A stretch of 30,092 nucleotides of DNA, from IMG/VR virus record IMGVR_UViG_3300027902_000023, positions 1-30,092 of that record, one strand, 5' to 3'. This stretch comes from a virus. This document shows, one piece after another, positions 1,060 to 24,690 of this stretch. Position numbers and translations under genes: made by a program. The notes below the pieces were generated by a model. It saw only the letters and a list, made by a program, of their open reading frames with translations. It had not been told where the DNA came from and made no database searches. How positions within the stretch are numbered: position 1 is the stretch's first letter; every line of letters begins with the position of its first letter.

Positions 1060-1088
1060 TTGACATTCCTTTTGATATCTATTATAAT
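1060..1088 (+). promoter_or_regulatory. Consensus sigma70 promoter before the 45-aa ORF
   Basis: TTGACA at 1060-1065 and TATAAT at 1083-1088 with a 17-base spacer: both hexamers are perfect. It would drive the short ORF at 1142 and end at the terminator at 1304-1338, making a discrete transcript of roughly 240 nt. Confidence 0.9.
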
Positions 1089-1347: not shown

Positions 1348-1376
1348 TTGACATTTGATTTAATGTATTTTATAAT
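1348..1376 (+). promoter_or_regulatory. Consensus sigma70 promoter of the tRNA/tmRNA array
   Basis: TTGACA (1348-1353), 17-base spacer, TATAAT (1371-1376). Perfect hexamers and optimal spacing. The first tRNA begins 11 bases after the -10 box, so tRNA-Phe and tmRNA are at the head of this transcript. Confidence 0.93.
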
Positions 1377-1386
1377 AGTTTATCAT

Positions 1387-1463
1387 CCGGAAAGAGCCCT
1401 ACTGGAAAGGGCATATGGTTGAAGGCCATATCGTTGAGGGTTCGAGTCCCTTTTTCCGGTCCA
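1387..1463 (+). tRNA. tRNA-Phe (GAA)
   Basis: Acceptor CCGGAAA/TTTCCGG, D-stem GCCC/GGGC, anticodon stem TATGG/CCATA with loop TTGAAGG, T-arm GAGGG-TTCGAGT-CCCTT, CCA encoded. Position 8 is G instead of the usual T, and the discriminator is T rather than the A typical of Phe tRNAs. First gene after the array promoter. Confidence 0.93.
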
Positions 1464-1476
1464 AAATATTTAGAAA

Positions 1477-1820
1477 GGGGCTGACAGGAATCGATTGAGG
1501 CAAAATGGTTTAGAGTTGCAAGCGGAGTACCAAAACTCCTAAAAAGTTGGAAAACAATAAATGCAGAACAAGAATTTCTTTTAGCTGCTTAAAACAGCTA
1601 AACGAGCATCATTAAGGTTCCTACACTTTTTAATGCTCGCCATTTAGTAGGATAAGTTTATAGTAAATGGATGTAACTATAAAACAAAAATAACATCCTA
1701 TAAGATAAAGTGGTAATTTTAAGAACCATTTTATATGAAAAGTTGTAAATCTTAAAATAAGCTTGTAGATACTTTAGATTAAGTTGCAGCAAGACGCGGG
1801 TTCAATTCCCGCCAGCTCCA
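1477..1820 (+). ncRNA. ssrA: tmRNA (transfer-messenger RNA)
   Basis: The 5' end GGGGCTGACAGGAATCGA and 3' end GACGCGGGTTCAATTCCCGC-CAGCTCCA form the alanine-type tRNA-like domain of bacterial tmRNA (GGGGCTG pairs with CAGCTCC; T-loop TTCAATT). Length is about 344 nt, close to the bacterial norm. A short frame at 1563-1592 encodes AEQEFLLAA and TAA; if resumption is one codon earlier the tag is NAEQEFLLAA. The tag ends in LAA, the usual ClpXP degradation signal. CCA is only partly encoded (A-CA-T). It sits 13 bases after tRNA-Phe in the promoter-proximal part of the array. Host tmRNA frees ribosomes stalled on messages without a stop codon; a phage copy would support or replace that during infection. 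Confidence 0.95.
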
Positions 1821-1830
1821 CATAATTTAA

Positions 1831-1904
1831 CGGGGTGTAGCGCAGTTTGGTAGCGCGTCTGCTTTGGGAGCAGGATGCCGGAGGTTCAAATCCTCTCACC
1901 CCGA
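1831..1904 (+). tRNA. tRNA-Pro (TGG)
   Basis: Acceptor CGGGGTG/CACCCCG, D-stem GCGC/GCGC, anticodon stem TCTGC/GCAGG with loop TTTGGGA, T-arm GGAGG-TTCAAAT-CCTCT. CCA is not fully encoded (A then CAT). Begins 10 bases after tmRNA. Confidence 0.95.
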
Positions 1905-1911
1905 CATTTTT

Positions 1912-1985
1912 CAGGGAGTAATGTTTAACGGTTAGCATCCTACGTCTGGAGCGTAGTAGTTGGGGTTCGAATCCCCATTCCCTGA
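1912..1985 (+). tRNA. tRNA with anticodon TGG by position (Pro?), atypical C33
   Basis: Acceptor CAGGGAG/TTCCCTG, D-stem ATGT/GCAT, anticodon stem CTACG/CGTAG, T-arm TGGGG-TTCGAAT-CCCCA, discriminator A. The seven-base loop is TCTGGAG, placing TGG at 34-36 but C at position 33, where U is almost universal. A shifted reading (CTG) would need a broken stem. Identity is therefore uncertain; a complete cloverleaf otherwise. Confidence 0.75.
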
Positions 1986-1999
1986 CATCAAAATTATAT

Positions 2000-2071
2000 T
2001 GCGGGAAGGCCGGTGCCTGGCCGAGTCTCATAAGCTTGGATTGGTAGGATCAACACCTACTCCCGCTACCA
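2000..2071 (+). tRNA. tRNA-Met (CAT), initiator-like
   Basis: Acceptor GCGGGA/TCCCGC preceded by an unpaired T1-T72, reminiscent of the 1:72 mismatch of bacterial initiator tRNA. Anticodon stem CGAGT/GCTTG with loop CTCATAA; T-stem GTAGG/CCTAC with the odd loop ATCAACA; CCA encoded. The D-arm is unusually compact, the molecule is short (72 nt), and the three G-C pairs typical of the initiator anticodon stem are missing. It could be initiator Met or a degenerate CAT tRNA. Confidence 0.75.
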
Positions 2072-2081
2072 AAAAATTTAT

Positions 2082-2156
2082 GGCTAAGTAACTCAGTTGA
2101 AGAGTACCTGTTTCATAAGCAGGAAGTCGAGAGCTCAATCCTCTCCTTAGCCCCCA
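2082..2156 (+). tRNA. tRNA-Met or tRNA-Ile2 (CAT)
   Basis: Acceptor GGCTAAG/CTTAGCC, D-stem ACTC/GAGT, anticodon stem CCTGT/GCAGG with loop TTCATAA, T-stem GAGAG/CTCTC, CCA encoded. The T-loop is CTCAATC, with C instead of T at position 54. CAT tRNAs may be elongator Met or, after lysidine modification of C34, Ile reading AUA; sequence alone does not decide. Confidence 0.9.
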
Positions 2157-2179
2157 GTTTTTAATATGGAGAACTGAAA

Positions 2180-2404
2180 ATGGATTCTTGTAAAAGTTGT
2201 AGATCATTAGAGAGTTGTTTTGATGGAATTCATGATGAAACATGGTGGTGTAAAAAATTGAATGAGGCACTTGGAATATTAGAGATACCTTACAAATGGA
2301 ATGAAATAAAATTTAGTATACATGATCTTGATTTCAAATGTTGTTTTTATGAAAGAAGCTTATATGGAGATGCTGCTGAGACGGTGGACAGCACCAGTCT
2401 GTAA
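2180..2404 (+). CDS. Small Cys-rich protein (74 aa) running into tRNA-Tyr
   Basis: Product MDSCKSCRSLESCFDGI... has CxxC and further Cys and His residues that could bind zinc, and a WWC motif. GGAGAACTG precedes the ATG at 2180. Its stop TAA (2402-2404) lies inside the anticodon loop of tRNA-Tyr, which begins at 2366, so the last dozen codons are tRNA sequence. RNase P cleavage would leave a message without a stop codon. No family recognised. Confidence 0.6.
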   Translation: MDSCKSCRSLESCFDGIHDETWWCKKLNEALGILEIPYKWNEIKFSIHDLDFKCCFYERSLYGDAAETVDSTSL

Positions 2405-2455
2405 AACTGGAAGCCTAAAAACTCGTTGGGGGTTCGAATCCCTTCATCTCCTCCA
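2366..2455 (+). tRNA. tRNA-Tyr (GTA), long variable arm
   Basis: Acceptor GGAGATG/CATCTCC, D-stem GCTG/CAGC, anticodon stem CCAGT/ACTGG with loop CTGTAAA, a class II variable arm, T-stem GGGGG/CCCTT with TTCGAAT loop, CCA encoded. Position 8 is C and the discriminator is T, both unusual for Tyr. Confidence 0.93.
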
Positions 2456-2468
2456 TTAAAATAGTTAT

Positions 2469-2542
2469 TCCGAGGTCCTTCAATGGTAGGAGAGGTGACT
2501 GTTAATCACTCAATGGAAGTTCAATTCTTCCTCTCGGAGCCA
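2469..2542 (+). tRNA. tRNA-Asn (GTT)
   Basis: Acceptor TCCGAGG/TCTCGGA, D-stem CTTC/GGAG, anticodon stem GGTGA/TCACT with loop CTGTTAA, T-stem GGAAG/CTTCC with TTCAATT loop, discriminator G and CCA encoded. Follows tRNA-Tyr by 13 bases. Confidence 0.95.
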
Positions 2543-2550
2543 AAATATAT

Positions 2551-2626
2551 GGTGATTGTAACCTAACGGTCAAGGTACTGGTCTGTGAAACCAGGTAAGA
2601 GCGTTCAATTCGCTCCTTTCACCCCA
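2551..2626 (+). tRNA. tRNA-His (GTG) with G-1:C73
   Basis: An extra G (2551) faces discriminator C73, the hallmark of tRNA-His. Acceptor GTGATTG/CTTTCAC contains two T-T mismatches. Anticodon stem CTGGT/ACCAG with loop CTGTGAA; T-stem GAGCG/CGCTC with TTCAATT loop; CCA encoded. Confidence 0.93.
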
Positions 2627-2636
2627 AAATAATTAT

Positions 2637-2710
2637 TCTCCTTTCGTCTAATGGTAAGACAGAGGTCTTTGAAGCCTCGAATCTGAGTTCGATTCTTAGA
2701 AGGAGATCCA
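2637..2710 (+). tRNA. tRNA-Gln (TTG)
   Basis: Acceptor TCTCCTT/AAGGAGA, D-stem GTCT/AGAC, anticodon stem GAGGT/GCCTC with loop CTTTGAA, T-loop TTCGATT, CCA encoded. Nearly identical in its middle to the next tRNA, from which it differs mainly in the acceptor stem and one anticodon base. Confidence 0.96.
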
Positions 2711-2716
2711 AAATAT

Positions 2717-2790
2717 TCGCTCTTCGTCTAATGGTAAGACAGAGGTCTCTGAAGCCTCGAATCTGGGTTCGATTCCTAGAGGGCGAACCA
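2717..2790 (+). tRNA. tRNA-Gln (CTG)
   Basis: Acceptor TCGCTCT/AGGGCGA, anticodon stem GAGGT/GCCTC with loop CTCTGAA, T-loop TTCGATT, CCA encoded. A tandem duplicate of the Gln(TTG) gene six bases upstream that has switched wobble base, so the pair reads both CAA and CAG. Confidence 0.96.
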
Positions 2791-2813
2791 AAAAATTTTA
2801 TTGGAGAAATTTG

Positions 2814-2945
2814 ATGAAGGTAACTATAAAAAATTTGAAAATAGATTCACCAATTGATGATGATATTAAAATTGATTTATTAGAGTTTGAAGGATCAGAA
2901 AATGAATTTAAAACTTTATGTGAAGATTTAGGAATAAAAAGATAA
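2814..2945 (+). CDS. Small acidic protein (43 aa)
   Basis: Product MKVTIKNLKIDSPIDDDIKI..., ending LCEDLGIKR. TTGGAGAAA lies at the right distance before the ATG. It fills the gap between tRNA-Gln and tRNA-Ser, and its codon use matches its neighbours. No family recognised. Confidence 0.55.
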   Translation: MKVTIKNLKIDSPIDDDIKIDLLEFEGSENEFKTLCEDLGIKR

Positions 2946-2951
2946 AATTAT

Positions 2952-3035
2952 GGAGAGGGGCGCGAATGGTGAACGGATAGTTTGCTAAACTATTGCCCGA
3001 AAGGGTAGCGGGGTCAGTACCCGCTCTCTCCGCCA
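2952..3035 (+). tRNA. tRNA-Ser (GCT)
   Basis: Acceptor GGAGAGG/TCTCTCC with discriminator G, anticodon stem ATAGT/ACTAT with loop TTGCTAA, variable arm closed by CCC/GGG, T-stem GCGGG/CCCGC, CCA encoded. The T-loop GTCAGTA lacks T54, and position 8 is G. Confidence 0.93.
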
Positions 3036-3047
3036 TAATAAAATAAA

Positions 3048-3410
3048 ATGAAACATGATCCTAACATTGGATTTAAAGATGGTACTAGAACCATTTGGAA
3101 TAAAGGTTTAACAAAAGAAACAGATGATAGGGTTAAGAAAATATCGAAAAAAGTAGGAGATGCATTAAGGGGTAAAAAGCAATCTTTCAAAGCTATAGAA
3201 GCACAAAAAAGAGGAATGAGGTTATCAGAGATAGTAGGAGGATATAGAGAAGGATCAGGAAGAGGAAAAAAGTTCAAAGTTTTTGATTCATATAATAATA
3301 GAGTTTGTTTGCAATCATCTTATGAATTATATGTTTCTGAAATATTAGATAGGTTAAATATTAAATGGATAAGACCAAAATATTTGATTTATATAGTAGA
3401 AAAAAGATAA
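3048..3410 (+). pseudogene. Remnant of a phage homing-endonuclease gene (EDxHD/VSR-like family?)
   Basis: The 120-aa reading frame contains IWNKGLTKETDDRVKK, typical of DNA-binding modules of phage homing endonucleases. This is followed by GGYREGSGRGKK and SSYELYVSEILDRLNIKW, which resemble the start of the EDxHD (very-short-patch-repair-like) nuclease domain. The usual C-terminal continuation of the nuclease domain is missing: the frame stops after YLIYIVEKR, and no other frame restores a convincing end. There is no ribosome binding site. I read it as a truncated, probably inactive gene left in the tRNA array. Family assignment is from memory of motif style. Confidence 0.6.
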
Positions 3411-3441
3411 AGAGAAGATACAATTGGTGAAAGAACAAAAT

Positions 3442-3540
3442 ATGATTACATTATTTATTTTATCTGAGAATCTTATTACTTGTGATTATATAAAGAAAAT
3501 ATGCCGGGATAGTTCAATTTCTGGTAGAACGGTGGACTGA
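3442..3540 (+). CDS. Possible 32-aa ORF ending in tRNA-Ile
   Basis: Product MITLFILSENLITCDYIKK... with a GGTGAAAG-like ribosome binding site. Its TGA (3538-3540) lies in the anticodon loop of the tRNA that begins at 3503. It is short, so it may be chance or decayed sequence from the endonuclease remnant upstream. Confidence 0.3.
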   Translation: MITLFILSENLITCDYIKKICRDSSISGRTVD

Positions 3541-3580
3541 TAATCCATTAATAGTGGTTCGACTCCACTTCTCGGTACCA
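3503..3580 (+). tRNA. tRNA-Ile (GAT)
   Basis: Acceptor GCCGGGA/TCTCGGT, D-stem GTTC/GAAC with a long D-loop, anticodon stem GTGGA/TCCAT with loop CTGATAA, T-stem AGTGG/CCACT with TTCGACT loop, discriminator A, CCA encoded. Confidence 0.95.
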
Positions 3581-3605
3581 AAAATATAGATCTTGAGGAT
3601 AGACG

Positions 3606-3673
3606 CTGGATATCGTCTAATGGTAGGACTCCGGCAATAGTCGGCAATATGGGTTCGAGTCCCATTATCCAAG
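3606..3673 (+). pseudogene. tRNA remnant with damaged anticodon arm
   Basis: The sequence keeps a near-complete acceptor (TGGATA/TATCCA), D-stem GTCT/GGAC and a good T-arm (ATGGG-TTCGAGT-CCCAT). The anticodon arm is too short (CCG-GCAATAGT-CGG), so total length is only about 68 nt and no anticodon can be assigned. CCA is absent. Directly after it, 3674-3695 is a palindromic T-arm-like sequence (around GAGTTCGAATTC), perhaps from a second lost tRNA. Bases 3700-3809 hold no gene that I can support; an 11-base direct repeat (TCGTGAAATCC) occurs at 3708 and 3781. Confidence 0.6.
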
Positions 3674-3809
3674 TAGTGGAGTTCGAATTCCACTATTTAG
3701 GAACATTTCGTGAAATCCCTCAATTGTAGATAGACAGGAGATTCCGTTCTTGATCGGTCCGGAATTGAATGGAACGTTACTCGTGAAATCCTACAACAAC
3801 TTTTTAAAT

Positions 3810-3905
3810 GGAGAGTTAACCATAACAGAGCAATGGCCTGGTCCAGAAAATCAGTTAGGTTGCCTAATAAGCGCCATGTGGGTTCGAATCCCTCACTCTC
3901 CTCCA
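3810..3905 (+). tRNA. tRNA, long variable arm, anticodon AGA by position (Ser?)
   Basis: Acceptor GGAGAGT/ACTCTCC with discriminator T, anticodon stem CTGGT/ATCAG, class II variable arm (TTAGG/CCTAA), T-loop TTCGAAT, CCA encoded. The loop CCAGAAA places AGA at 34-36 with C at position 33. An A34 serine tRNA is rare in bacteria, and Ser tRNAs usually carry G73, so both identity and function are uncertain. The T-stem has one mismatch. Confidence 0.65.
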
Positions 3906-3918
3906 TTTTTGAATATGA

Positions 3919-4062
3919 ATGAAAGATATTACTAATTTTTTAATTGAAGCTATTAGAAGTTCGAATAGAAGATTTGTCAGAAAAAAAGTGAGAGAAGAGT
4001 ATAATATCTGGAGGGTAGCGTCCGTGGGGACAGGTGGCTTTGAATACCACCGCCGGCAATAG
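3919..4062 (+). CDS. Possible 47-aa ORF ending in tRNA-Ser
   Basis: Product MKDITNFLIEAIRSSNRRFVRKK... is basic and reads like real coding sequence up to about residue 31 (base 4009). After that it is tRNA sequence, and the stop TAG (4060-4062) is in the variable arm of the next tRNA. No clear ribosome binding site. Confidence 0.35.
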   Translation: MKDITNFLIEAIRSSNRRFVRKKVREEYNIWRVASVGTGGFEYHRRQ

Positions 4063-4092
4063 CTGAAGGTTCGACTCCTTTGCTCTCCGCCA
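4010..4092 (+). tRNA. tRNA-Ser (TGA)
   Basis: Acceptor GGAGGGT/GCTCTCC with discriminator G, long variable arm, T-arm TTCGACT, CCA encoded. The anticodon arm is GTGGC-TTTGAAT-ACCAC, giving TGA with T33 but a C31-A39 mismatch next to the loop. Together with Ser(GCT) it covers most serine codons. Confidence 0.88.
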
Positions 4093-4122
4093 TTAATTTT
4101 CATTAAGGAGATTGTATGTGTA

Positions 4123-4293
4123 ATGATCATAAACTTTATACCAATGGCCTTAGTGATAAGTATTTCTTTATATATAATAAAGAAAGATATTGAGACAATA
4201 ACATGGTTTAAGATATTTTCACCTTTTTTGATTTTAGGTTTTATAGAAATTTTGATATTGGTTTTTGATCAAAAACATAAGCTTAGTTGGTAG
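4123..4293 (+). CDS. Small membrane protein (56 aa) ending in tRNA-Cys
   Basis: Two hydrophobic segments (FIPMALVISISLYII and IFSPFLILGFIEILILVF) predict a two-helix inner-membrane protein. AAGGAG (4105-4110) lies 12 bases before this ATG and 5 bases before an out-of-frame ATG at 4116 that opens a 25-codon ORF. Either or both may be translated. The stop TAG (4291-4293) is inside the D-arm of tRNA-Cys. Function unknown. Confidence 0.5.
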   Translation: MIINFIPMALVISISLYIIKKDIETITWFKIFSPFLILGFIEILILVFDQKHKLSW

Positions 4294-4356
4294 ATTGGCG
4301 CATGCGACGGTCTGCAAAACCGTAGAAGATGGGTTCGATTCCCTCACTAAGCTCCA
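4281..4356 (+). tRNA. tRNA-Cys (GCA)
   Basis: Acceptor GCTTAGT/ACTAAGC, anticodon stem ACGGT/ACCGT with loop CTGCAAA, T-loop TTCGATT, discriminator T (the normal Cys identity base), CCA encoded. Confidence 0.95.
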
Positions 4357-4383
4357 TATATTAAATTGAAAAGGAGGAGTAAA

Positions 4384-4887
4384 ATGAAGATTAGTTCAAG
4401 TTCATGGCATTTCAGATTGTGGGCGTATAGACAGAAATTTTTTAGTGGTGATAGTGATGATAGAATTAGGCACCATTCACTTCAGTTGACTTTATGTAGT
4501 TATTTTTGGTCAGTAATTTGGACAATTTGGGTATTTTTCTTCTTTTATGCAATTAGAGTTCCACTAGGTTATATTTTTGGTTTAAGATGGGTTAAAGGAG
4601 AGCATGAATTTATTTTGAAAAATAAAATTCATGCTATATGTGTAGTAGTTTTTCTACTCTTAATGCCAACGTTTATAGCAATTCTTAATCCAAAGGTAAC
4701 ACCTGTTGCATTAACTACTTTGTTTATCTATTTCATAATTGGTGTAATAGTTGCATTAGAAAAGCTTAAAATGTATTTGAATTTATATCCAAGAAAAGAA
4801 GATAGTTTCTATAATGTAACAAAAGAATTTATCAAAGCAAAGAAAGCAAAAGTTTGTCCTAATATAGAAGTTATTTTTCCAAAATAA
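4384..4887 (+). CDS. Membrane protein (167 aa), phage-type
   Basis: I chose the ATG at 4384 because AAGGAGGAG lies 5-13 bases upstream; an in-frame TTG at 4366 has no such site. The N-terminus MKISSSSWHFRLWAYRQKF followed by LCSYFWSVIW resembles small membrane proteins I have seen in large phages. Three to four transmembrane segments are visible: at about residues 45-70, at 85-110 (AICVVVFLLLMPTFIAIL), and at 115-135. The tail is basic and cytoplasmic. Function not known. Confidence 0.75.
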   Translation: MKISSSSWHFRLWAYRQKFFSGDSDDRIRHHSLQLTLCSYFWSVIWTIWVFFFFYAIRVPLGYIFGLRWVKGEHEFILKNKIHAICVVVFLLLMPTFIAILNPKVTPVALTTLFIYFIIGVIVALEKLKMYLNLYPRKEDSFYNVTKEFIKAKKAKVCPNIEVIFPK

Positions 4888-4889
4888 GA

Positions 4890-4918
4890 TTGACTTTTGA
4901 ATAGAAATAAATTATATT
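4890..4918 (+). promoter_or_regulatory. Promoter before tRNA-Asp
   Basis: TTGACT (4890-4895), 17-base spacer, TATATT (4913-4918). Five of six matches in each hexamer. The tRNA begins 8 bases later, so this probably refreshes transcription of the middle of the array. Confidence 0.75.
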
Positions 4919-4925
4919 AAAAGTT

Positions 4926-5002
4926 GGGTACGTAGCATAATTGGTCAGTGTGCTTCCCTGTCACGGAAGAAGGTACCGGTTCGAATCCGGCCGTACCCGC
5001 CA
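4926..5002 (+). tRNA. tRNA-Asp (GTC)
   Basis: Acceptor GGGTACG/CGTACCC with discriminator G, anticodon stem CTTCC/GGAAG with loop CTGTCAC, T-loop TTCGAAT, CCA encoded. First tRNA after the promoter at 4890. Confidence 0.96.
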
Positions 5003-5014
5003 TAAATAAACAAC

Positions 5015-5091
5015 GGCCTACTACCCCAACTGGTAGAGGGAGTGGACTTAAAATCCATAAGTTCCCGGTTCGAATCCGGGGTAGGCTACCA
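5015..5091 (+). tRNA. tRNA with Leu anticodon TAA on a short-variable-arm body
   Basis: Acceptor GGCCTAC/GTAGGCT, anticodon stem GTGGA/TCCAT with loop CTTAAAA, T-arm CCCGG-TTCGAAT-CCGGG, discriminator A, CCA encoded. The variable loop is only five bases (AAGTT), whereas bacterial tRNA-Leu is class II with a long variable arm. One of four related tRNAs with leucine anticodons and this class I shape. Confidence 0.9.
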
Positions 5092-5115
5092 AAAATAATT
5101 GAAGGAGATTGTTAT

Positions 5116-5325
5116 ATGAAATGTCAGTGTTGTAATAAGAATAGAAAATCTCCTAGAAATGCAGTTGTTAGAACTGAGCAAAACAATTTTATTCTATGTG
5201 GTATATGTAGTAATGCTATACATATAAGCAAGAATATTATTTTTGGAATTATGAATAAAAATGTAGATTGGGATTTTCTTATGACATCTACTAAAAAAGA
5301 TTTTGAGAAAGGATTTATAAAATGA
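5116..5325 (+). CDS. Small zinc-ribbon-like protein (69 aa)
   Basis: Start at 5116 is set by GAAGGAGATT upstream; longer readings run back through tRNAs. Product MKCQCCNKNRKSPRN... has CxCC near the N-terminus and CGIC at about residues 36-39, a likely four-Cys zinc site. The last four bases overlap the next gene (ATGA), so the two are translationally coupled. Function unknown. Confidence 0.65.
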   Translation: MKCQCCNKNRKSPRNAVVRTEQNNFILCGICSNAIHISKNIIFGIMNKNVDWDFLMTSTKKDFEKGFIK

Positions 5326-5942
5326 TATTGCTACTTGTTTTGTTTCTTTTATTTAATGTTTCAATAAGTGAAGCACAAATAATAACAAATGAAGTAGTAA
5401 CAAGTGAAACAGTAACAAGTGAACCAAACCCTTTTGGAAGGGTGATAATTAAACATCCAACACCAGATATAACAGTTTATTATCCAGATCCAGAATTAAC
5501 ACCTGGTGTAGTAGATGAAAAAGTTACACAAGATAATTTAAAAGAAACAATTTGTGTATCTGGGTTTACAGCAACTGAAAGAGTAAACCAAACTTCCACA
5601 TTTAAGAAACAAGTTTTTGAGAGATATGGAATTGATTGGAGTCTACATAAACAGTTTGAAGATGATCATTTTTTATCACTTGAAGATGGAGGCAAAGACG
5701 GAGATTTAAATAATAGGTGGCCTCAATATTATTGTCCCAAAGCAACGGCAGGTAAAACTTGTTTCGGCGCAAGGGAAAAAGATGTTTGCGAAACTAATTT
5801 ACATAAAAGAATTTGTGATGGTAAAATGACATTGAAAGAAGCGCAAGAAATTATTATAACAGATTGGTTTATGGAATATTTAAGGATAAAAAGAATTGAT
5901 AGTTTATTAAGCCGCCCCATTAGCTCAACGGATTCAGAGTAA
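5322..5942 (+). CDS. Exported HNH-like nuclease-fold protein (206 aa)
   Basis: Residues 1-19 are a signal peptide (MILLLVLFLLFNVSISEAQ). After a linker, residues about 118-190 carry FEDDHFLSLEDGGKDGDLNNRWPQ, then GAREKDVCETNLHKRICDGK and TLKEAQEII-TDW. This matches my memory of secreted bacterial HNH-like proteins (DH-P-LGG ... NLWPQ ... AKEKDxxEN-LH-VC-G-LxLxxAQ). Export implies action in the periplasm, for example on incoming DNA, although the catalytic set is not fully canonical (DDHF for DHL/I). The stop TAA (5940-5942) falls inside tRNA-Arg, which begins at 5914, so about nine C-terminal residues derive from tRNA sequence. Starts within the previous gene (ATGA overlap). Confidence 0.75.
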   Translation: MILLLVLFLLFNVSISEAQIITNEVVTSETVTSEPNPFGRVIIKHPTPDITVYYPDPELTPGVVDEKVTQDNLKETICVSGFTATERVNQTSTFKKQVFERYGIDWSLHKQFEDDHFLSLEDGGKDGDLNNRWPQYYCPKATAGKTCFGAREKDVCETNLHKRICDGKMTLKEAQEIIITDWFMEYLRIKRIDSLLSRPISSTDSE

Positions 5943-5990
5943 GAGGCTTCTACCCTCCATGAGCCAGTTCGACTCTGGCATGGGGCTCCA
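5914..5990 (+). tRNA. tRNA-Arg (TCT)
   Basis: Acceptor GCCCCAT/ATGGGGC, D-stem GCTC/GAGT, anticodon stem AGAGG/CCTCC (A27-C43 mismatch) with loop CTTCTAC, T-loop TTCGACT, CCA encoded. Reads AGA, a common codon in this AT-rich window. Confidence 0.93.
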
Positions 5991-6036
5991 TATTTTAAAA
6001 GGAACTGAGTATAAAATTACAGCTTAAAAATAAAAT

Positions 6037-6113
6037 GCGTCTGTAGCCCAACTGGTAGAGGCAGTTGCCTCAAAAGCAGCGTGTTGGTGGTTCGAATCCA
6101 CTCAGGCGCACCA
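6037..6113 (+). tRNA. tRNA with Leu anticodon CAA, short variable arm
   Basis: Acceptor GCGTCTG/CAGGCGC, anticodon stem GTTGC/GCAGC with loop CTCAAAA, five-base variable loop GTGTT, T-arm GGTGG-TTCGAAT-CCACT, discriminator A, CCA encoded. Shares its D-arm (CCCAACTGGTAGAGG) with the TAA and AAG tRNAs, showing common descent. Confidence 0.9.
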
Positions 6114-6123
6114 TAAAAATTAT

Positions 6124-6200
6124 GGCTCTGTACCCCAACTGGTAGAGGGAGCTGGCTAAGAACCAGTATAGTAGGAGTTCAAATCTCCTCAGGGCTACCA
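6124..6200 (+). tRNA. tRNA with Leu anticodon AAG, short variable arm
   Basis: Acceptor GGCTCTG/CAGGGCT, anticodon stem GCTGG/CCAGT with loop CTAAGAA, variable loop ATAGT, T-arm AGGAG-TTCAAAT-CTCCT, discriminator A, CCA encoded. A34 in a leucine anticodon is very unusual in bacteria, where A34 (inosine) is mostly limited to Arg(ACG). Confidence 0.9.
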
Positions 6201-6205
6201 AAAAT

Positions 6206-6355
6206 ATGAAAAAGATACTAACAGAAGAAGAGTTTTTAGAAATTTTTGGAAAACCATTTGATGAACAAGAAACAAAGATTAATGTTCTAAAAATAGAATA
6301 TTTTGGATGTTCATTATGGTTTGTAAGAATAAATGCTCCGGAAGCATTACGGTAA
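6206..6355 (+). CDS. Small unrecognised protein (49 aa)
   Basis: Product MKKILTEEEFLEIFGKPFDEQ... ends ...INAPEALR. It starts 5 bases after the tRNA CCA, and no ribosome binding site is visible in the short spacer. Its 3' end lies in the palindrome GCATTACGGTAATGC. The following 6360-6494 has no supported gene, though an open stretch (FDKEQNKINLIIVDKDHLSW) without a normal start suggests a decayed related ORF. Confidence 0.45.
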   Translation: MKKILTEEEFLEIFGKPFDEQETKINVLKIEYFGCSLWFVRINAPEALR

Positions 6356-6494
6356 TGCACTCGGCCTTTATTTTTAAAAATATAAATAATTTATTTGGAT
6401 ACAAAAAAATGACTATTTGATAAAGAACAAAATAAAATAAATTTGATCATAGTTGATAAAGATCATTTGAGTTGGATGAAAGTAAAAGAATTAA

Positions 6495-6571
6495 GCCCTT
6501 TAAACATTTAATTGGATGATGCCTGGTCCTGTAAACCAGTGAAGATGGTTCGATTCCATCAAAGGGCTCCA
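6495..6571 (+). tRNA. tRNA-Thr (TGT), C33
   Basis: Acceptor GCCCTTT/AAAGGGC, anticodon stem CTGGT/ACCAG with loop CCTGTAA, T-arm GATGG-TTCGATT-CCATC, discriminator T, CCA encoded. Position 33 is C and position 8 is A; the D-stem is weak. It complements Thr(GGT) at 10906. Confidence 0.85.
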
Positions 6572-6580
6572 AAATTAAAT

Positions 6581-6653
6581 GGGGCGCTAGCTCATTCAGG
6601 AGAGCACCTGGCCTGCACCCAGGAGGCGGTCGGAGCAAAGCCGACGCGCTCCA
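6581..6653 (+). tRNA. tRNA-Ala (TGC), C33
   Basis: Acceptor GGGGCGC/GCGCTCC, D-stem GCTC/GAGC, anticodon stem CCTGG/CCAGG with loop CCTGCAC (C33), T-stem GTCGG/CCGAC with the non-canonical loop AGCAAAG. CCA is not encoded in full (A then CAT, as in the tmRNA). Only alanine tRNA of the set. Confidence 0.85.
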
Positions 6654-6682
6654 CATCAAAAATCTTTTCTATAAATAGTTAT

Positions 6683-7228
6683 ATGGAAAAGTTGAAATAT
6701 ACAATTTATCAAGTAACAAATTTGATTAATAGTAAGTTTTATGTTGGAATGCATCAAACAAAGAACCTAAAAGATGGTTATATGGGTTCTGGTAAATATT
6801 TAAGAAGAGCTATTTCAAAATATGGAATAGAGAATTTTAAGAAAGAAATTTTATGGTTATGTGATTCTTTTGAAGAAATGAAGGAATTTGAAAAAGGAAT
6901 CATTACAGAAGAATTTCTTGAACAGAATAAAGAAAATACATATAATCTATTAGTTGGTGGCAAGGGTGGATTCTATTATGTAAATAAGGAAGGGTTACAA
7001 CTTGATAACTTCTATAAAAATTTAGATAAGGAAGAAATATTATTACATAGACAGAATGGGGGATATGCTTCATCAAACAGATCAAAAGTAGTTATAACTA
7101 GAATAAGTGATAAAGTAAAAAATTACTATAAAACACATAACGGAACTTTCAAAGGTAAAAAACATACTGAGGAAGCAAAACAAAAAATGAAACGGAATAA
7201 TATACATAATAGGAATAAAATTACTTAG
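6683..7228 (+). CDS. GIY-YIG homing endonuclease (181 aa)
   Basis: The N-terminus has the GIY-YIG core: YTIYQVTNLINSKFYVGMHQT, then GYMGSGKYLRRAISKYGIENF and a catalytic-type Glu in KGIITEEFL. The C-terminus contains FKGKKHTEEAKQKM, a NUMOD3-type DNA-binding helix, and then ends soon after, shorter than many relatives. The ATG at 6683 begins the conserved domain; earlier in-frame starts lie in tRNA sequence. This is a free-standing selfish nuclease of the Seg type, inserted between tRNA-Ala and a small gene. Such enzymes cut phage genomes that lack them and promote their own spread. Confidence 0.85.
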   Translation: MEKLKYTIYQVTNLINSKFYVGMHQTKNLKDGYMGSGKYLRRAISKYGIENFKKEILWLCDSFEEMKEFEKGIITEEFLEQNKENTYNLLVGGKGGFYYVNKEGLQLDNFYKNLDKEEILLHRQNGGYASSNRSKVVITRISDKVKNYYKTHNGTFKGKKHTEEAKQKMKRNNIHNRNKIT

Positions 7229-7233
7229 AAAAA

Positions 7234-7383
7234 ATGTTATATTTTTGTACAAAGTGTCACGAAACGTGCAATTTAGAAAAACATATTGATCCATACAAGT
7301 TTATATGTGAAGATTGCAAAAGAAAGATAGATGCCTCTGTACCCCAATTGGTAGAGGGTTCTGGCTTAGAACCAGATAGTTAG
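7234..7383 (+). CDS. Small zinc-ribbon protein (49 aa) ending in a tRNA
   Basis: Product MLYFCTKCHETCNLEKHI...FICEDCKRK has CxxC twice, a likely zinc ribbon. The tRNA begins at 7333, so about the last 16 codons are tRNA sequence, and the stop TAG is at 7381-7383. No clear ribosome binding site. Confidence 0.5.
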   Translation: MLYFCTKCHETCNLEKHIDPYKFICEDCKRKIDASVPQLVEGSGLEPDS

Positions 7384-7409
7384 GAGTTCGAATCTCCTCA
7401 GGGGCACCA
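7333..7409 (+). tRNA. tRNA with Leu anticodon TAG, short variable arm
   Basis: Acceptor GCCTCTG/CAGGGGC, anticodon stem TCTGG/CCAGA with loop CTTAGAA, five-base variable loop, T-arm AGGAG-TTCGAAT-CTCCT, discriminator A, CCA encoded. Fourth member of the class I leucine-anticodon group. Confidence 0.92.
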
Positions 7410-7412
7410 AAA

Positions 7413-7487
7413 GGGCTCATAACTCAACGCGTAGAGTAGCTGGCTTTTAACCAGTAAATCGGGGTTCGACTCCCCGTGAGCCCACCA
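7413..7487 (+). tRNA. tRNA-Lys (TTT)
   Basis: Acceptor GGGCTCA/TGAGCCC, D-stem ACTC/GAGT, anticodon stem GCTGG/CCAGT with loop CTTTTAA, T-arm CGGGG-TTCGACT-CCCCG, discriminator A, CCA encoded. Only three bases separate it from the previous tRNA. Confidence 0.96.
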
Positions 7488-7495
7488 TAAAAAAA

Positions 7496-7617
7496 TTGAC
7501 TATACCGACACCTGGGTGTGGGGTCAAGGAAATGGAGGTCAATTTCTACCAAAGCGGTAGCAATCTCCATGGAGACTCAAGTGGTGTGACGCAAGGCTGA
7601 GAGGGGCCGAACCATTT
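7496..7617 (+). ncRNA. Candidate structured RNA between tRNA-Lys and small genes
   Basis: A GC-richer, ORF-free stretch with several helices: TTGAC/GTCAA (7496-7500 with 7523-7527), GAAAT/ATTTC (7529-7533 with 7542-7546), CTACC/GGTAG (7546-7560) and TCTC/GAGA around CATG (7564-7575). ACACC (7508-7512) could pair with GGTGT (7583-7587) to close the whole. The 3' part has GGCTGAGA (7595) and GAACC (7609), words found in TPP riboswitches, but the rest of that consensus is absent. It could be a leader of the gene at 7637 or an independent RNA. Confidence 0.45.
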
Positions 7618-7636
7618 TTATATATGAAGGAGTGAA

Positions 7637-7777
7637 ATGATGTTAAAACTAACTCATAAAAGACCTTGTTCAGAAACAAAAGAACATTTTATTGCTACGA
7701 ATGAAAAAGAAACTCATTATTGGTGTTTAATATGTGCAAAAGAATTGAATAAGGATGGTACAGAGAAGAAATGTTGA
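7637..7777 (+). CDS. Small His/Cys-containing protein (46 aa)
   Basis: GAAGGAGTGAA precedes the double ATG at 7637. Product MMLKLTHKRPCSETKEHF...HYWCLICAKEL contains CxxC with nearby His and Cys residues, suggesting metal binding. Its stop overlaps the start of the next ORF (ATGTTGA), so the two are probably translationally coupled. Lies downstream of the structured stretch at 7496-7617. Confidence 0.6.
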   Translation: MMLKLTHKRPCSETKEHFIATNEKETHYWCLICAKELNKDGTEKKC

Positions 7778-7950
7778 AAATAGATGATGAAACAAAAGCA
7801 ATTGTAAATGATATGAAAAAGAGATGTTTTTATTTTAAAAATGAAAAATGTTTTCATAAGCATAGAAAGATGTACTGGTTTATAAAACCGTTGTGTGATA
7901 GATCATACCATACTCCATGTATGTATTTTAAAGTTAAAGCGCGCCTGTAG
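7771..7950 (+). CDS. Small Cys/His-rich basic protein (59 aa) ending in tRNA-Lys
   Basis: Product MLKIDDETKAIVNDMKKRCFY... has four Cys and four His residues (KCFHKH, PLCDRSYHTPC), a possible zinc-binding fold. Start overlaps the previous stop. The TAG stop (7948-7950) is exactly T8-A9-G10 of the tRNA-Lys that begins at 7941, so the conserved tRNA core supplies the stop codon. Confidence 0.6.
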   Translation: MLKIDDETKAIVNDMKKRCFYFKNEKCFHKHRKMYWFIKPLCDRSYHTPCMYFKVKARL

Positions 7951-8016
7951 CAAAGAGGCTAATGCATCTGACTCTTAATCAGAAGATCGTCGGTTCGACT
8001 CCGACCAGGCGTACCA
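7941..8016 (+). tRNA. tRNA-Lys (CTT)
   Basis: Acceptor GCGCCTG/CAGGCGT, anticodon stem TCTGA/TCAGA with loop CTCTTAA, T-arm GTCGG-TTCGACT-CCGAC, discriminator A, CCA encoded. Reads AAG, complementing Lys(TTT). Confidence 0.96.
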
Positions 8017-8041
8017 TATAAATATTTTTGGAGGGTGAGTT

Positions 8042-8227
8042 ATGGTGATAACAGAAGAAATTGTAAAAAAGAGATTAACTGATTTATTGAATGAATGTTT
8101 AGAATCTGCTAATCAAGAACATTCATTTGTAGTTAAAAAGGTTGATTTAGTAAATAAAAAATTCTTAGTAGAATTTGATATAGTCGAAGTACCTGAAGAT
8201 GACTATATTGGATTTCAAGGTTATTAA
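8042..8227 (+). CDS. Small acidic protein (61 aa)
   Basis: TTGGAGGGTGAGTT provides a good ribosome binding site. Product MVITEEIVKKRLTDLLNECL... is predicted helix then beta strands, ending IGFQGY. Not recognised. It ends four bases before tRNA-Val and does not overlap it. Confidence 0.65.
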   Translation: MVITEEIVKKRLTDLLNECLESANQEHSFVVKKVDLVNKKFLVEFDIVEVPEDDYIGFQGY

Positions 8228-8231
8228 AAAT

Positions 8232-8307
8232 GCATCATTAGCCATCTGGGGATGACCACCGCCCTACAAGCGGATGCAGCGGAGTCCGATTCTCCGATGA
8301 TGCACCA
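8232..8307 (+). tRNA. tRNA-Val (TAC), C33 and C55
   Basis: Acceptor GCATCAT/ATGATGC, T-stem CGGAG/CTCCG, CCA encoded, discriminator A. The anticodon stem CCGC/GCGG encloses loop CCTACAA, giving TAC with C33. The T-loop TCCGATT has C at position 55, and the D-stem has a C11-A24 mismatch. It is the only valine tRNA of the set. Confidence 0.85.
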
Positions 8308-8332
8308 AAAATAATTTGAGATATATAGTAAA

Positions 8333-8366
8333 TTTGATTCGTTAGGGGTAAAAAAGGAGAATCAAA
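8333..8366 (+). promoter_or_regulatory. Hairpin sequestering the ribosome binding site of the next gene
   Basis: TTTGATTC (8333-8340) is perfectly complementary to GAATCAAA (8359-8366). The second arm overlaps the AAGGAG site and reaches the A of the ATG at 8366. Forming this 8-bp stem would block initiation; translation could require a protein, temperature change or upstream translation to open it. Confidence 0.55.
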
Positions 8367-8620
8367 TGAGTAAACTATATATCCCTATTGGAAATATCAA
8401 GCATGGAGAAGAGATTCCAGGAAAAGTTGGCAGGTATTGTGAAGTACATCAAACAATACATGGTCGTTTTTATAGGTGTCATAAATACTCTGAAAAAATA
8501 AAAGAAGAAATTAAGAAAGAAGAAAGAAGACATTTAAATATAAGTTCTAGTATAGCAATTGTAATAATATTTGTAATTTTACTAACGATAGAAGTATTGA
8601 AATATAAACCGCCCCTGTAG
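8366..8620 (+). CDS. Tail-anchored small protein (84 aa) ending in tRNA-Arg
   Basis: Product MSKLYIPIGNIKHGEEI... has a Cys/His-containing soluble part (RYCEVHQTIHGRFYRCHKY) and a C-terminal membrane helix (SSIAIVIIFVILLTIEVL). The stop TAG (8618-8620) is T8-A9-G10 of tRNA-Arg(ACG). AAGGAG lies before the ATG but inside the hairpin at 8333-8366. The four Cys/His residues may bind zinc. Function unknown. Confidence 0.65.
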   Translation: MSKLYIPIGNIKHGEEIPGKVGRYCEVHQTIHGRFYRCHKYSEKIKEEIKKEERRHLNISSSIAIVIIFVILLTIEVLKYKPPL

Positions 8621-8687
8621 TTCAACGGATTAGAATGCTCGGCTACGAACCGGGAGGTTGCGGGTTCAATTCCTGCCAGGGGTACCA
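8611..8687 (+). tRNA. tRNA-Arg (ACG)
   Basis: Acceptor GCCCCTG/CAGGGGT, D-stem GTTC/GAAT, anticodon stem CTCGG/CCGGG with loop CTACGAA, T-arm GCGGG-TTCAATT-CCTGC, discriminator A, CCA encoded. A34 here is the usual substrate of bacterial TadA. Confidence 0.95.
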
Positions 8688-8715
8688 AATTTTGCAGGAG
8701 TGAGGAGTTTCAAAA

Positions 8716-9219
8716 ATGGATTGTTACGTATTGACAAATAGTTTTGAATACCATGACACAATCAAGTGGAAGACTGCGATGCAAATGTTGCACCGTGAGA
8801 GTCAACCAGTTGAAGTCATCCTATACTCTGATTATGAAATTAAGCCAGGTGTTTATGCACCAAAGGTTTTAAAGTTACACAGAGATGTTAGAAAGTACTA
8901 TGGGAAGAAAGTTCATTGGAGCCCAGAAAATCTTTTTAGCAGAGATGATTATACTTGTAAATATTGTGGTATAAAGATGGGCAGAAATGAATGTACTATC
9001 GATCATGTTATACCACAATGCAGAGGTGGAAAGACTGAATTTGATAACTGTGTTACCGCTTGTCATGATTGCAACAATAAGAAGGACAACAGAACACCTT
9101 CTGAAGCAAAGATGTATTTAAAGAAATTACCATATACTCCAACAATTATGGAATTTTTCAGAAAGAAAGTAAAGAGAGATGGAATTGTTGAAGTATTGAA
9201 AGAATTAGGTATTTACTAA
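8716..9219 (+). CDS. HNH endonuclease (167 aa)
   Basis: Residues about 75-130 form a classic HNH domain with a structural zinc site: CKYCG, then CTIDHVIPQCRGGKTEFDNCVTAC, then HDCNNKKDNRTPSEA. The catalytic DH and the downstream Asn are intact. AGGAGTGAGGAG gives a strong ribosome binding site. The N-terminal 70 residues are probably an additional DNA-interaction region. It is most likely a free-standing homing endonuclease in the tRNA array, although a host-DNA-degrading role is possible. Confidence 0.85.
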   Translation: MDCYVLTNSFEYHDTIKWKTAMQMLHRESQPVEVILYSDYEIKPGVYAPKVLKLHRDVRKYYGKKVHWSPENLFSRDDYTCKYCGIKMGRNECTIDHVIPQCRGGKTEFDNCVTACHDCNNKKDNRTPSEAKMYLKKLPYTPTIMEFFRKKVKRDGIVEVLKELGIY

Positions 9220-9231
9220 AAATTATTACAC

Positions 9232-9260
9232 TTGACTCTTGAAAAGAATTACTATATAAT
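9232..9260 (+). promoter_or_regulatory. Promoter before the lipoprotein gene
   Basis: TTGACT (9232-9237), 17-base spacer, TATAAT (9255-9260). The gene starts 20 bases downstream with GGAGGAAAG before its ATG. The transcript would continue into tRNA-Arg(CCT) and beyond. Confidence 0.85.
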
Positions 9261-9280
9261 AGCTCAAAAATGGAGGAAAG

Positions 9281-9637
9281 ATGAATAAATTGTTGTTAAT
9301 TTTGATTACTATTTTTGTGTTGGTTTCAGGTTGTGGCCCAACTTTAAACCAAACAATGAATTCACAAATGATTTCAAAAGGAACTACAACAAATTCTACA
9401 CCATATGAATGTATTATTATAGAGAATTCAAAAACAAGATGGAGTGCAATATCAAAATCACTTGCAGTAGTTGCACCATTAATTTCAGCAGCGGGTGTTA
9501 GTTGGGTAGCAGGAGCTATAGCTGGTGCTTGTTCCGTTGGTTCTGCTGTTATTGCAGATGGAAAAGTAACTGACTATCTTTTAATGGGTTGCCCTACTGT
9601 GGTGAGTACATCGACAGGAACGGTAATTTTGAAATAG
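9281..9637 (+). CDS. Lipoprotein (118 aa)
   Basis: A type II signal peptide (MNKLLLILITIFVLVSGC) with lipobox LVSGC predicts an envelope lipoprotein lipidated at Cys 18. The middle has a hydrophobic Gly/Ala-rich stretch (LISAAGVSWVAGAIAGACSV) that may insert into membrane. It has its own promoter. Plausible roles are superinfection exclusion or lysis control, but nothing in the sequence decides. The stop TAG ends at 9637, which is nucleotide 1 of tRNA-Arg(CCT), so RNase P would cut between A and G of the stop codon. Confidence 0.75.
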   Translation: MNKLLLILITIFVLVSGCGPTLNQTMNSQMISKGTTTNSTPYECIIIENSKTRWSAISKSLAVVAPLISAAGVSWVAGAIAGACSVGSAVIADGKVTDYLLMGCPTVVSTSTGTVILK

Positions 9638-9711
9638 CGCCATTAGCCTATCGGAGCAGGTACTGGTTTCCTAAACCAGTTAAACAGGTTCAACTCCTGT
9701 ATGGCGCACCA
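9637..9711 (+). tRNA. tRNA-Arg (CCT)
   Basis: Acceptor GCGCCAT/ATGGCGC, anticodon stem CTGGT/ACCAG with loop TTCCTAA, T-arm ACAGG-TTCAACT-CCTGT, discriminator A, CCA encoded. Third Arg tRNA; its G1 is also the last base of the upstream gene's stop codon. Confidence 0.95.
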
Positions 9712-9734
9712 ATTTATATTTGAGGTGCTAAAAT

Positions 9735-9875
9735 ATGTTAACAGAAGAAGAAAAAGCAGAATTAAAGCAAATTTTTCATGAACTTTGGACAAGAGATGTA
9801 GGCACAGAAGGATATGAAAAGAAAAAGTGGACAAAATTGGTCCAACTTTTAAAAGAAGAAAAAGTATATGTTTAA
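9735..9875 (+). CDS. Small charged helical protein (46 aa)
   Basis: Product MLTEEEKAELKQIFHELWTRD... is highly charged and probably one or two helices. TGAGGTGC lies about 8 bases upstream as a weak ribosome binding site. Not recognised. Confidence 0.55.
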   Translation: MLTEEEKAELKQIFHELWTRDVGTEGYEKKKWTKLVQLLKEEKVYV

Positions 9876-9883
9876 TACGTGGT

Positions 9884-9935
9884 CAGCGCGGATGCTGTTA
9901 AATGGCTCCTAGATCAGGGAGCAGCCTTAATTTTT
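9884..9935 (+). ncRNA. Two-hairpin element, possible terminator
   Basis: CAGC/GCTG (9884-9897) is followed by GCTCC/GGAGC (9905-9922). GGCT (9904-9907) could alternatively pair with AGCC (9923-9926). The T-rich tail at 9927-9935 fits a rho-independent terminator after the 46-aa gene, but tRNA follows directly at 9936, so read-through or processing must be possible. Confidence 0.4.
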
Positions 9936-10011
9936 GGGCTTGTAGTTCAACTGGTAGAACACCTTCCTCATAAGAAGACAGTTGATGGTTCGACTCCATT
10001 CAGGCCCACCA
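9936..10011 (+). tRNA. tRNA-Met or tRNA-Ile2 (CAT)
   Basis: Acceptor GGGCTTG/CAGGCCC, D-stem GTTC/GAAC, anticodon arm CCTTC-CTCATAA-GAAGA (C27-A43 mismatch), T-arm GATGG-TTCGACT-CCATT, discriminator A, CCA encoded. Third CAT tRNA; the three probably divide into initiator Met, elongator Met and Ile2. Confidence 0.92.
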
Positions 10012-10028
10012 ATTTTTTATAAGGAAAA

Positions 10029-10148
10029 ATGGAACAAGGTATTTCAACAATAGCGATATGTATACTGTCAGGTGTTGCTATAATTAAAAATTATCCAACA
10101 GTTGCATTTTGGATATTATTTATTGGAGTATTAGCAATTTGGAGTTAA
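10029..10148 (+). CDS. Single-helix membrane microprotein (39 aa)
   Basis: Product MEQGISTIAICILSGVAIIK... is almost wholly hydrophobic (ending VAFWILFIGVLAIWS), predicting one or two short membrane segments. AAGGAAAA precedes the ATG. It lies between tRNA genes without overlapping them. Function unknown. Confidence 0.55.
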   Translation: MEQGISTIAICILSGVAIIKNYPTVAFWILFIGVLAIWS

Positions 10149-10153
10149 AATAT

Positions 10154-10230
10154 AGGGGTATAGTGTTTAACGGTTAGCACGATGGCCTCCAAAACCACTA
10201 GTCCGGGTTCGATTCCTGGTACCCCTGCCA
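10154..10230 (+). tRNA. tRNA-Trp (CCA)
   Basis: Acceptor AGGGGTA/TACCCCT with discriminator G as in bacterial tRNA-Trp, D-stem GTGT/GCAC, loop CTCCAAA, T-arm CCGGG-TTCGATT-CCTGG, CCA encoded. The anticodon stem ATGGC/ACCAC keeps only three pairs, with A27-C43 and C31-A39 mismatches. Confidence 0.9.
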
Positions 10231-10240
10231 TTTTTATAGT

Positions 10241-10302
10241 AACCCTATGGTCGATAGTGGCGGAAGCTCTCCGGCCAATCTATCATAAAGGTTCCATAGG
10301 TT
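10241..10302 (+). ncRNA. Compact structured RNA, unidentified
   Basis: An outer helix AACC-CTATGG / CCATAG-GTT encloses GATAG/CTATC, then TGGC-GGA / TCC-G-GCCA capped by AGCTC. The whole element folds into one long bulged hairpin, has no ORF, and lies 10 bases after tRNA-Trp and 16 before the next tRNA. A T-rich tract follows. It may be a processing signal, terminator or small RNA; I know no match. Confidence 0.55.
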
Positions 10303-10318
10303 TTCATTTTTAATATAT

Positions 10319-10408
10319 GCGGGTATGACCGAGTGGTTTAAGGTACTTGGCTTCCACCCAAGGGGTGACGTAAGTTGCCCAGGGGTTCGAATCCCCTTAC
10401 CCGCTCCA
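10319..10408 (+). tRNA. tRNA-Gly (TCC) on a class II (long variable arm) body
   Basis: Acceptor GCGGGTA/TACCCGC with discriminator T, D-arm of the Leu/Ser type (TGACCGAGTGGTTTAAGG), anticodon stem CTTGG/CCAAG with loop CTTCCAC, a long variable arm (GGG...CCC), T-loop TTCGAAT, CCA encoded. The acceptor carries the known bacterial glycine identity set (G1-C72, C2-G71, G3-C70, U73, plus C35 and C36), while the body looks like a class II tRNA. Confidence 0.9.
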
Positions 10409-16681: not shown

Positions 16682-17477
16682 TATAGCAGTACTGTACTTA
16701 GTCAGAAACAATCCTGTAGAGTCTTTAGGTCTGTTACAAAGATTTCTTGTTTCCTATAAACAGTTTCCAAGTGGACTTGAACATGATTTGATAATCATCT
16801 TCAAAGGGTTTGAAGATGATCAGGATCTTTTACAAAAGCATGTAGAATACTTACAAAATTTTAGGTACCAATCAATACTAATTGATGACTTTGGTTTTGA
16901 TCATCGCACATATTTTTCAGCGATAAAACAATACAAAACTAAATATTATTGTTTACTAAATTCTTTTACTAGAATATTAGATAGTGATTGGTTATTCAAA
17001 CTTTATTCTAACCTCACCAAATCTGGTGTTGGTATTGTTGGAGTTACTGGTTCATATGAAAGCCAGTATACAAATATTATTGGAGAACCAGATGTTACTC
17101 CAGAAAAGTTAGAAAAACATAAGAAATATTTTAATCCATATCCATCCTATCATATACGAAGTACTGGTTATATGATTTCTGCAGACACAATAAATAATTT
17201 AAAGTTACCTAGGTTTGTTACTAAAATGGATTCTTATAGATTTGAAAGTGGTAAAGATAGTCTTACAAATCAAATATTTAGAATGGGTTTAGATGCTCTT
17301 GTAGTTGATAAAAATGGTGTTGGCTATCAAAAAGAAAATTGGGCTGAATCAGAAACCTTCCGATATAGATGGCAAGATAATTTACTCATAGCAGATAAAC
17401 ATACACAAATTTATCAGAATATGGACTTAACAGAGAAGAAAAGAATAGCATTTCATACCTGGAGAAAGGAATTTTAA
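16674..17477 (+). CDS. Glycosyltransferase-like protein (267 aa)
   Basis: The fold signature is GT-A-like. A beta-strand start (SNIAVLYLVRNN) is followed by LIIIFKGF and SILIDDFGFDHRTYFSAIKQYK, then YYCLLNSFTRILDSDW in the place of the DxD region, and GIVGVTGSYESQ. The later part (SYHIRSTGYMISADTINNL) is like O-antigen/capsule glycosyltransferases acting on polysaccharide. No signal peptide. Stop and next start overlap (TAATG), coupling it with the GT2-GT9 fusion. Donor and acceptor are unknown. Confidence 0.7.
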   Translation: MSNIAVLYLVRNNPVESLGLLQRFLVSYKQFPSGLEHDLIIIFKGFEDDQDLLQKHVEYLQNFRYQSILIDDFGFDHRTYFSAIKQYKTKYYCLLNSFTRILDSDWLFKLYSNLTKSGVGIVGVTGSYESQYTNIIGEPDVTPEKLEKHKKYFNPYPSYHIRSTGYMISADTINNLKLPRFVTKMDSYRFESGKDSLTNQIFRMGLDALVVDKNGVGYQKENWAESETFRYRWQDNLLIADKHTQIYQNMDLTEKKRIAFHTWRKEF

Positions 17478-19570: not shown

Positions 19571-19573
19571 AAA

Positions 19574-20362: not shown

Positions 20363-20368
20363 ATTATT

Positions 20369-24100: not shown

Positions 24101-24124
24101 ATTCTGTTATAAACAATATATAAT
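24097..24124 (+). promoter_or_regulatory. Promoter before the methyltransferase gene
   Basis: TTGAAT (24097-24102), 16-base spacer, TATAAT (24119-24124). It overlaps the stop of the reductase gene and lies 20 bases before the next start. Confidence 0.65.
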
Positions 24125-24143
24125 ATGAAACATTGGAGGGGAA

Positions 24144-24689: not shown

Positions 24690-24690
24690 C

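Follow-up and report, generated by a model that had tools for sequence, protein, structure and literature searches.

The tmRNA gene and its structural elements

The stretch of DNA analysed here, referred to as the window, is an IMG/VR virus record of 30,092 bases. Close to its beginning a tRNA array follows a consensus promoter in the order promoter (1348-1376), tRNA-Phe (1387-1463), tmRNA and the other array genes, such that the tmRNA is the second gene of the array and lies 100 bp behind the promoter. The features of the locus are as follows.

1060-1088, plus strand: second predicted promoter, TTGACA-17-TATAAT, perfect match to the consensus
1348-1376, plus strand: predicted sigma70-type promoter, TTGACA-17-TATAAT, 12/12 match, just ahead of the array
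1387-11058, plus strand: tRNA array, 34-35 tRNA-like genes, all 20 amino acids (ARAGORN, Rfam)
1477-1820, plus strand: one-piece tmRNA gene (ssrA), acceptor stem to discriminator base (ARAGORN, RF00023, fold z, helices)
1477-1483, plus strand: acceptor stem 5' strand GGGGCUG, pairing with CAGCUCC at 1813-1819 (7/7)
1524-1550, plus strand: predicted pseudoknot PK1, S1 1524-1528/1535-1539, S2 1530-1533/1547-1550
1558-1559, plus strand: U at -5 and A at -4 of the resume codon, equivalents of E. coli U85 and A86
1563-1592, plus strand: tag frame GCA...UAA, AEQEFLLAA* (ARAGORN, frame reading)
1580-1602, plus strand: hairpin P5, 8 bp, enclosing the tag end and the stop codon (helix search)
1603-1652, plus strand: predicted pseudoknot PK2, S1 1603-1608/1634-1639, S2 1619-1624/1647-1652
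1657-1698, plus strand: predicted pseudoknot PK3, S1 1657-1664/1676-1683, S2 1669-1674/1693-1698
1705-1757, plus strand: predicted pseudoknot PK4, S1 1705-1714/1725-1734, S2 1717-1724/1750-1757
1796-1812, plus strand: T arm GCGGG-UUCAAUU-CCCGC, 5/5 pairs (Rfam, helix search)

ARAGORN made a single tmRNA call in the window, a one-piece tmRNA on the plus strand at 1477-1821 with the tag AEQEFLLAA*. Infernal/Rfam analysis matched the full RF00023 model (1-374) at 1477-1823 with a score of 137.7 bits (E 3.9e-54; gathering score 47 bits), close to the 146.2 bits of one bacterial chromosomal tmRNA. The acceptor stem, which includes the alanine identity pair G3-U70, runs up to 1819; the discriminator A occupies 1820 and CAT follows, so that a 3' CCA is absent from the gene. 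An extent of 1477-1820 had been proposed in a preliminary description of this DNA and is exact for the part before the CCA, beginning with the acceptor stem and closing with the discriminator. The calculated fold of the tmRNA amounted to -94.6 kcal/mol, as compared to a mean of -65.3 for shuffled sequences (z -6.2). Matches to the two-piece (permuted) tmRNA family RF04321 were sub-threshold overlaps only (23.4 bits vs. 47), and a weak Rfam match to YrlA overlapping the T arm was also below threshold.

No close homologue was found; the four predicted pseudoknots can all form. Their second helices comprise 4, 6, 6 and 8 bp for PK1, PK2, PK3 and PK4, respectively, and were compared with chance by shuffling the loop and downstream segments (n=5000). 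The crossing helix of PK4 was reached by 26 of the 5000 shuffles and that of PK1, only 4 bp long, by 142, both of which are unusual, while S2 of PK3 (392/5000) is marginal. With G-U pairs allowed, the length of S2 of PK2 was reached in 1685 of 5000 cases and, taken alone, is within chance. The case for the predicted pseudoknots is thus one of a match to the whole family, not of single knots. As judged from its sequence, the tmRNA is structurally complete, with all defining parts present. The complete ssrA with tRNA-like ends claimed in the preliminary description is borne out, since ARAGORN and RF00023 agree and every defining part was located; the covariance search with Infernal/ARAGORN that had been suggested as a check gave a full-length match, PK1-PK4 able to form and GCA as the resume codon.

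In E. coli tmRNA, U85 and A86 set the tag frame and their importance has been measured (PMC2481249). GCA at 1563 is favoured as the resume codon because U and A precede it at -5 and -4, respectively, and because both programs agree. An A at 1556 also stands four bases ahead of AAU 1560, and the A rule alone is therefore not decisive for the frame. No LAA-type tag is found in frames +1 and +2; only frame 0 has the LAA end and a stop inside P5. Two tags, AEQEFLLAA or NAEQEFLLAA, had been offered for this gene. The former, read from GCA 1563, stands, whereas the start for NAEQEFLLAA appears less likely, given the U at -5 and the agreement of both programs.

Comparison with known tmRNAs and search for a host

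With the E. coli ssrA and one-piece RF00023 tmRNAs, the window tmRNA shares the acceptor stem with G3-U70, the T arm, PK1-PK4, U-A at -5/-4 and the LAA end. In contrast to E. coli ssrA, its tag is AEQEFLLAA and not ANDENYALAA, CCA is unencoded, the molecule is compact (344 nt) and its pseudoknots are A-U-rich. The earlier statement that the tag is unlike that of E. coli and keeps the LAA end agrees with the reading of frame 0.

Phage tmRNAs had been described as known but uncommon, and the literature is in accordance with this view: tmRNAs occur in 402 of 18,146 phage genomes and represent 133 distinct structures (PMC9004378), ten phages with tmRNA have been named (PMC4131195), and huge phages with tmRNA are known, some of them also with SmpB (PMC7162821). 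A complete tmRNA in a large genome, as here, is found in mycobacteriophages (Bxz1, Wildcat), Bacillus phage G, Streptomyces phages and huge phages, and in C1 mycobacteriophages the tmRNA stands beside many tRNAs, like in the array of the window. The tags of those phage tmRNAs differ from the one reported here (ANSKFAFALAA and ANSNVASAYALAA in Streptomyces phages), and their similarity in the phage collection is limited to the T-arm end. When compared to 50,697 phage records, tmRNA similarity among the matches listed was confined to the last 33-36 bases (10% of the length), some of these T-arm-end matches being in records annotated as Streptomyces phage tmRNAs. The tmRNA of the methylophage Melnitz is also phage-encoded, but it is two-piece and lies near a glutamine riboswitch (PMC9004378); no riboswitch was found in the window with Rfam, and the tmRNA there is one-piece. 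Assignment to a DS6A-type class of TLD-only decoys was set aside, the mRNA-like domain being complete here.

About 50 tmRNAs were called when viral contigs were scanned for tmRNA 3' ends. Nearest in build were those of contigs L082 (AEKNFSLAA), L108 (ANKQFALAA) and L117 (ANDFALAA), which like the window tmRNA are one-piece, with 327-384 nt and tags of 8-9 residues. Their tags end in SLAA or ALAA and their overall sequence similarity to the window tmRNA is low. In the alignment, L108 and L117 lack the same bases in the D region (GA--CAGG, GA--CCGG) and otherwise show little similarity. L117 is from a T4-like phage with rIIA/rIIB, and at 3801-5374 its compact tmRNA and an RNA ligase gene are immediate neighbours; the two kinds of gene may travel together.

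The pattern GGGGCTGANNGGAATCGA occurred at 39 loci in viral contigs, only two of which had ARAGORN tmRNAs, neither with a similar tag. Strict and relaxed patterns for the tag itself gave no match in other viral contigs, and the exact tag AEQEFLLAA was found in none of the 84,980 species genomes searched. The tag thus appears private to the window phage in our searches, occurring in no species genome and in no other viral contig. The preliminary description had expected the tag to help identify the host, an expectation that failed with 0 matches to the tag pattern among the 84,980 species. A close relative of the tmRNA was likewise not found among these species, and the host cannot be named from the tag or the tmRNA. 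The 3'-end pattern matched one Marinilabiliales MAG, whose tag is GADNYALAA. We attribute this match to a conserved end shared by chance and do not take the MAG as the host, since the promoters and Shine-Dalgarno-like sites of the window are unlike those of Bacteroidota. Sigma70-type TTGACA/TATAAT promoters and Shine-Dalgarno-like sites are not the Bacteroidota pattern, and the genes of the window do have Shine-Dalgarno-like sites.

The tRNA array and the rest of the fragment

Both promoters are consensus matches and as such predicted only; a perfect TTGACA-17-TATAAT would be expected by chance 0.007 times per strand in 12.3 kb. The promoter-proximal position in the array, as first described, is right in the sense of the consensus match at 1348-1376. 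Small ORFs and homing endonucleases are interspersed in the array. ARAGORN at default settings detected 29 tRNAs, and all 20 amino acids are covered because relaxed settings add genes missed at default, namely Ser(gct) at 2952-3035, Ser(tga) at 4010-4092, Ala(tgc) at 6581-6654 and Val(tac) at 8232-8307, besides a Met-like gene. A phage with tRNAs for all 20 amino acids, XacN1, is already known (PMC5852040).

Some members of the array are unusual. The Met(cat)-like tRNA at 2000-2071 has an initiator-type loop CTCATAA and odd arms, and a divergent tRNA-Pro(tgg) at 1912-1986, with only 26 bits in Rfam, directly follows a well-formed tRNA-Pro(tgg). At 3606-3673 a tRNA-like gene has good D and T arms (Rfam 43 bits), a shortened anticodon arm and no legal anticodon; a pseudo-tRNA or a decoy for anticodon nucleases is a possible reading. 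Noncoding stretches between genes at 12738-12850, 10236-10300 and 7505-7625 fold into long stems and match no Rfam family; they are possibly unknown structured RNAs.

Among the phage-type genes of the window are those for a T4 RNase H-like exonuclease, homing endonucleases and a phage metallopeptidase, together with an RNA ligase sequence; structural genes of a phage were not identified within the 30 kb. The RNA ligase at 11716-12689 (phrog_548; 44% to Erwinia phage Hena1) is apparently interrupted by a frame break: its C-terminal part forms a separate ORF at 12048-12689, and the ORF before it, at 11716-11982, gave no match to a family. A 727-aa protein encoded at 13072-15255 (phrog_33734) is 53% identical to a protein of a Niallia taxi megaplasmid and 27% to one of jumbo phage XacN1; its C-terminal part resembles TerD stress proteins by eye, with no Pfam match. 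About 9 kb at 16674-25809 contain sugar-nucleotide and glycosyltransferase genes (nucleotidyltransferase, C-methyltransferase, epimerases, radical SAM-SPASM), which probably serve a surface glycan or glycosylation. On the minus strand, 27530-29806 encodes a 758-aa low-complexity protein with TNIPAS.TINNV repeats and no Pfam match.

Relatives of the 727-aa protein (about 50% identity) were found on three contigs of 170, 170 and 45 kb. One of the 170-kb contigs carries a T4-type gp23 capsid gene and two of the three have tRNA clusters. No tmRNA was seen in any of the three contigs, which may be incomplete, and the tmRNA therefore seems not to be a stable part of the lineage. Used as a probe, the exonuclease revealed no relatives in viral contigs. 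A large T4-related phage, sampled in a metagenome, is supported as the predicted source of the window. A gene for SmpB was not found on the 30-kb fragment, which cannot show its absence from the genome, nor in the three relatives or in four other contigs with tmRNA, several of which are fragments.

Proposed function and alternatives

We consider it very probable that this one-piece tmRNA of a T4-related phage is functional and carries out trans-translation, the likely function of such a molecule. Points that weigh against this reading are that no close homologue was found, the short S2 of PK1, the chance-level S2 of PK2 and the relatives with the 727-aa protein, in which tRNAs but no tmRNA were seen. 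From the observed anatomy and genomic setting we infer the following course, from transcription and charging through SmpB binding and tagging to degradation and a benefit. The tmRNA would probably share a transcript with tRNA-Phe and the tRNAs downstream, made from the promoter at 1348-1376; it would be excised by host tRNA-processing enzymes, provided with CCA by the host CCA enzyme and charged with alanine by the host AlaRS via G3-U70. Host SmpB, whose supply is presumed because no SmpB gene lies on the 30-kb fragment, would bring it to ribosomes stalled on broken mRNA. Alanine and AEQEFLLAA would then be appended to the nascent chain, which a protease of the ClpXP type should recognise by its LAA end. 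The host would presumably supply this protease as well as the alanyl-tRNA synthetase and the CCA enzyme. Since the tag keeps LAA and lacks the E. coli-type adaptor-binding part (AANDENY), it might be non-host by design, the phage thereby altering the degradation rate or the adaptor in infection, which we regard as unlikely.

The likely benefit would be that ribosome turnover is kept up while mRNA and tRNAs are cut in infection, a suggestion made because nucleases of phage and host break mRNAs and cut tRNAs and because the genome has a full tRNA set and an RNA ligase sequence. According to an earlier proposal, phage tRNAs make up for the cleavage of host tRNAs (PMC10264068), and by extension the tmRNA may likewise offset mRNA and tRNA cleavage.

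It is very unlikely, in our opinion, that the tmRNA serves as a decoy, taking up SmpB and AlaRS in competition with the tmRNA of the host and thereby blocking trans-translation there. The tmRNA of mycobacteriophage DS6A consists of little beyond the tRNA-like domain, and a DS6A-like molecule strongly inhibits tmRNA, perhaps by SmpB titration (PMC4131195); the missing SmpB gene on the 30-kb fragment would also fit. However, a decoy would not need the mRNA-like domain, frame determinants, open tag and four pseudoknots that are all kept here. We give just as little credence to a recently captured host gene or excision relic retained without function. Host ssrA can be a prophage integration site, and it has been suggested that phages obtained ssrA by gene exchange with such a prophage (PMC9004378), but this tmRNA lies inside the tRNA array in the same orientation, its essential parts are intact, and neither the tag nor a close tmRNA was found among the 84,980 species. 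Least probable is an origin of the contig from a megaplasmid or chromosome, for which the Niallia taxi relative of the 727-aa protein and the lack of an identified structural gene speak, against the IMG/VR virus record, the T4-type exonuclease, RNA ligase sequence, homing endonucleases and phage metallopeptidase and the gp23-type capsid gene on a relative contig.

Functional trans-translation remains our preferred reading. Phage tmRNAs are a known kind, found in a few per cent of phages; this gene, with its private tag, adds a well-formed example to a small set and leaves the general picture of tmRNA unchanged. Because its tag is found in no sequenced host and because the phage has tRNAs for all 20 amino acids and an RNA ligase sequence, it would be a reasonable test case for asking whether the phages' own ribosome rescue offsets mRNA and tRNA cleavage in infection.
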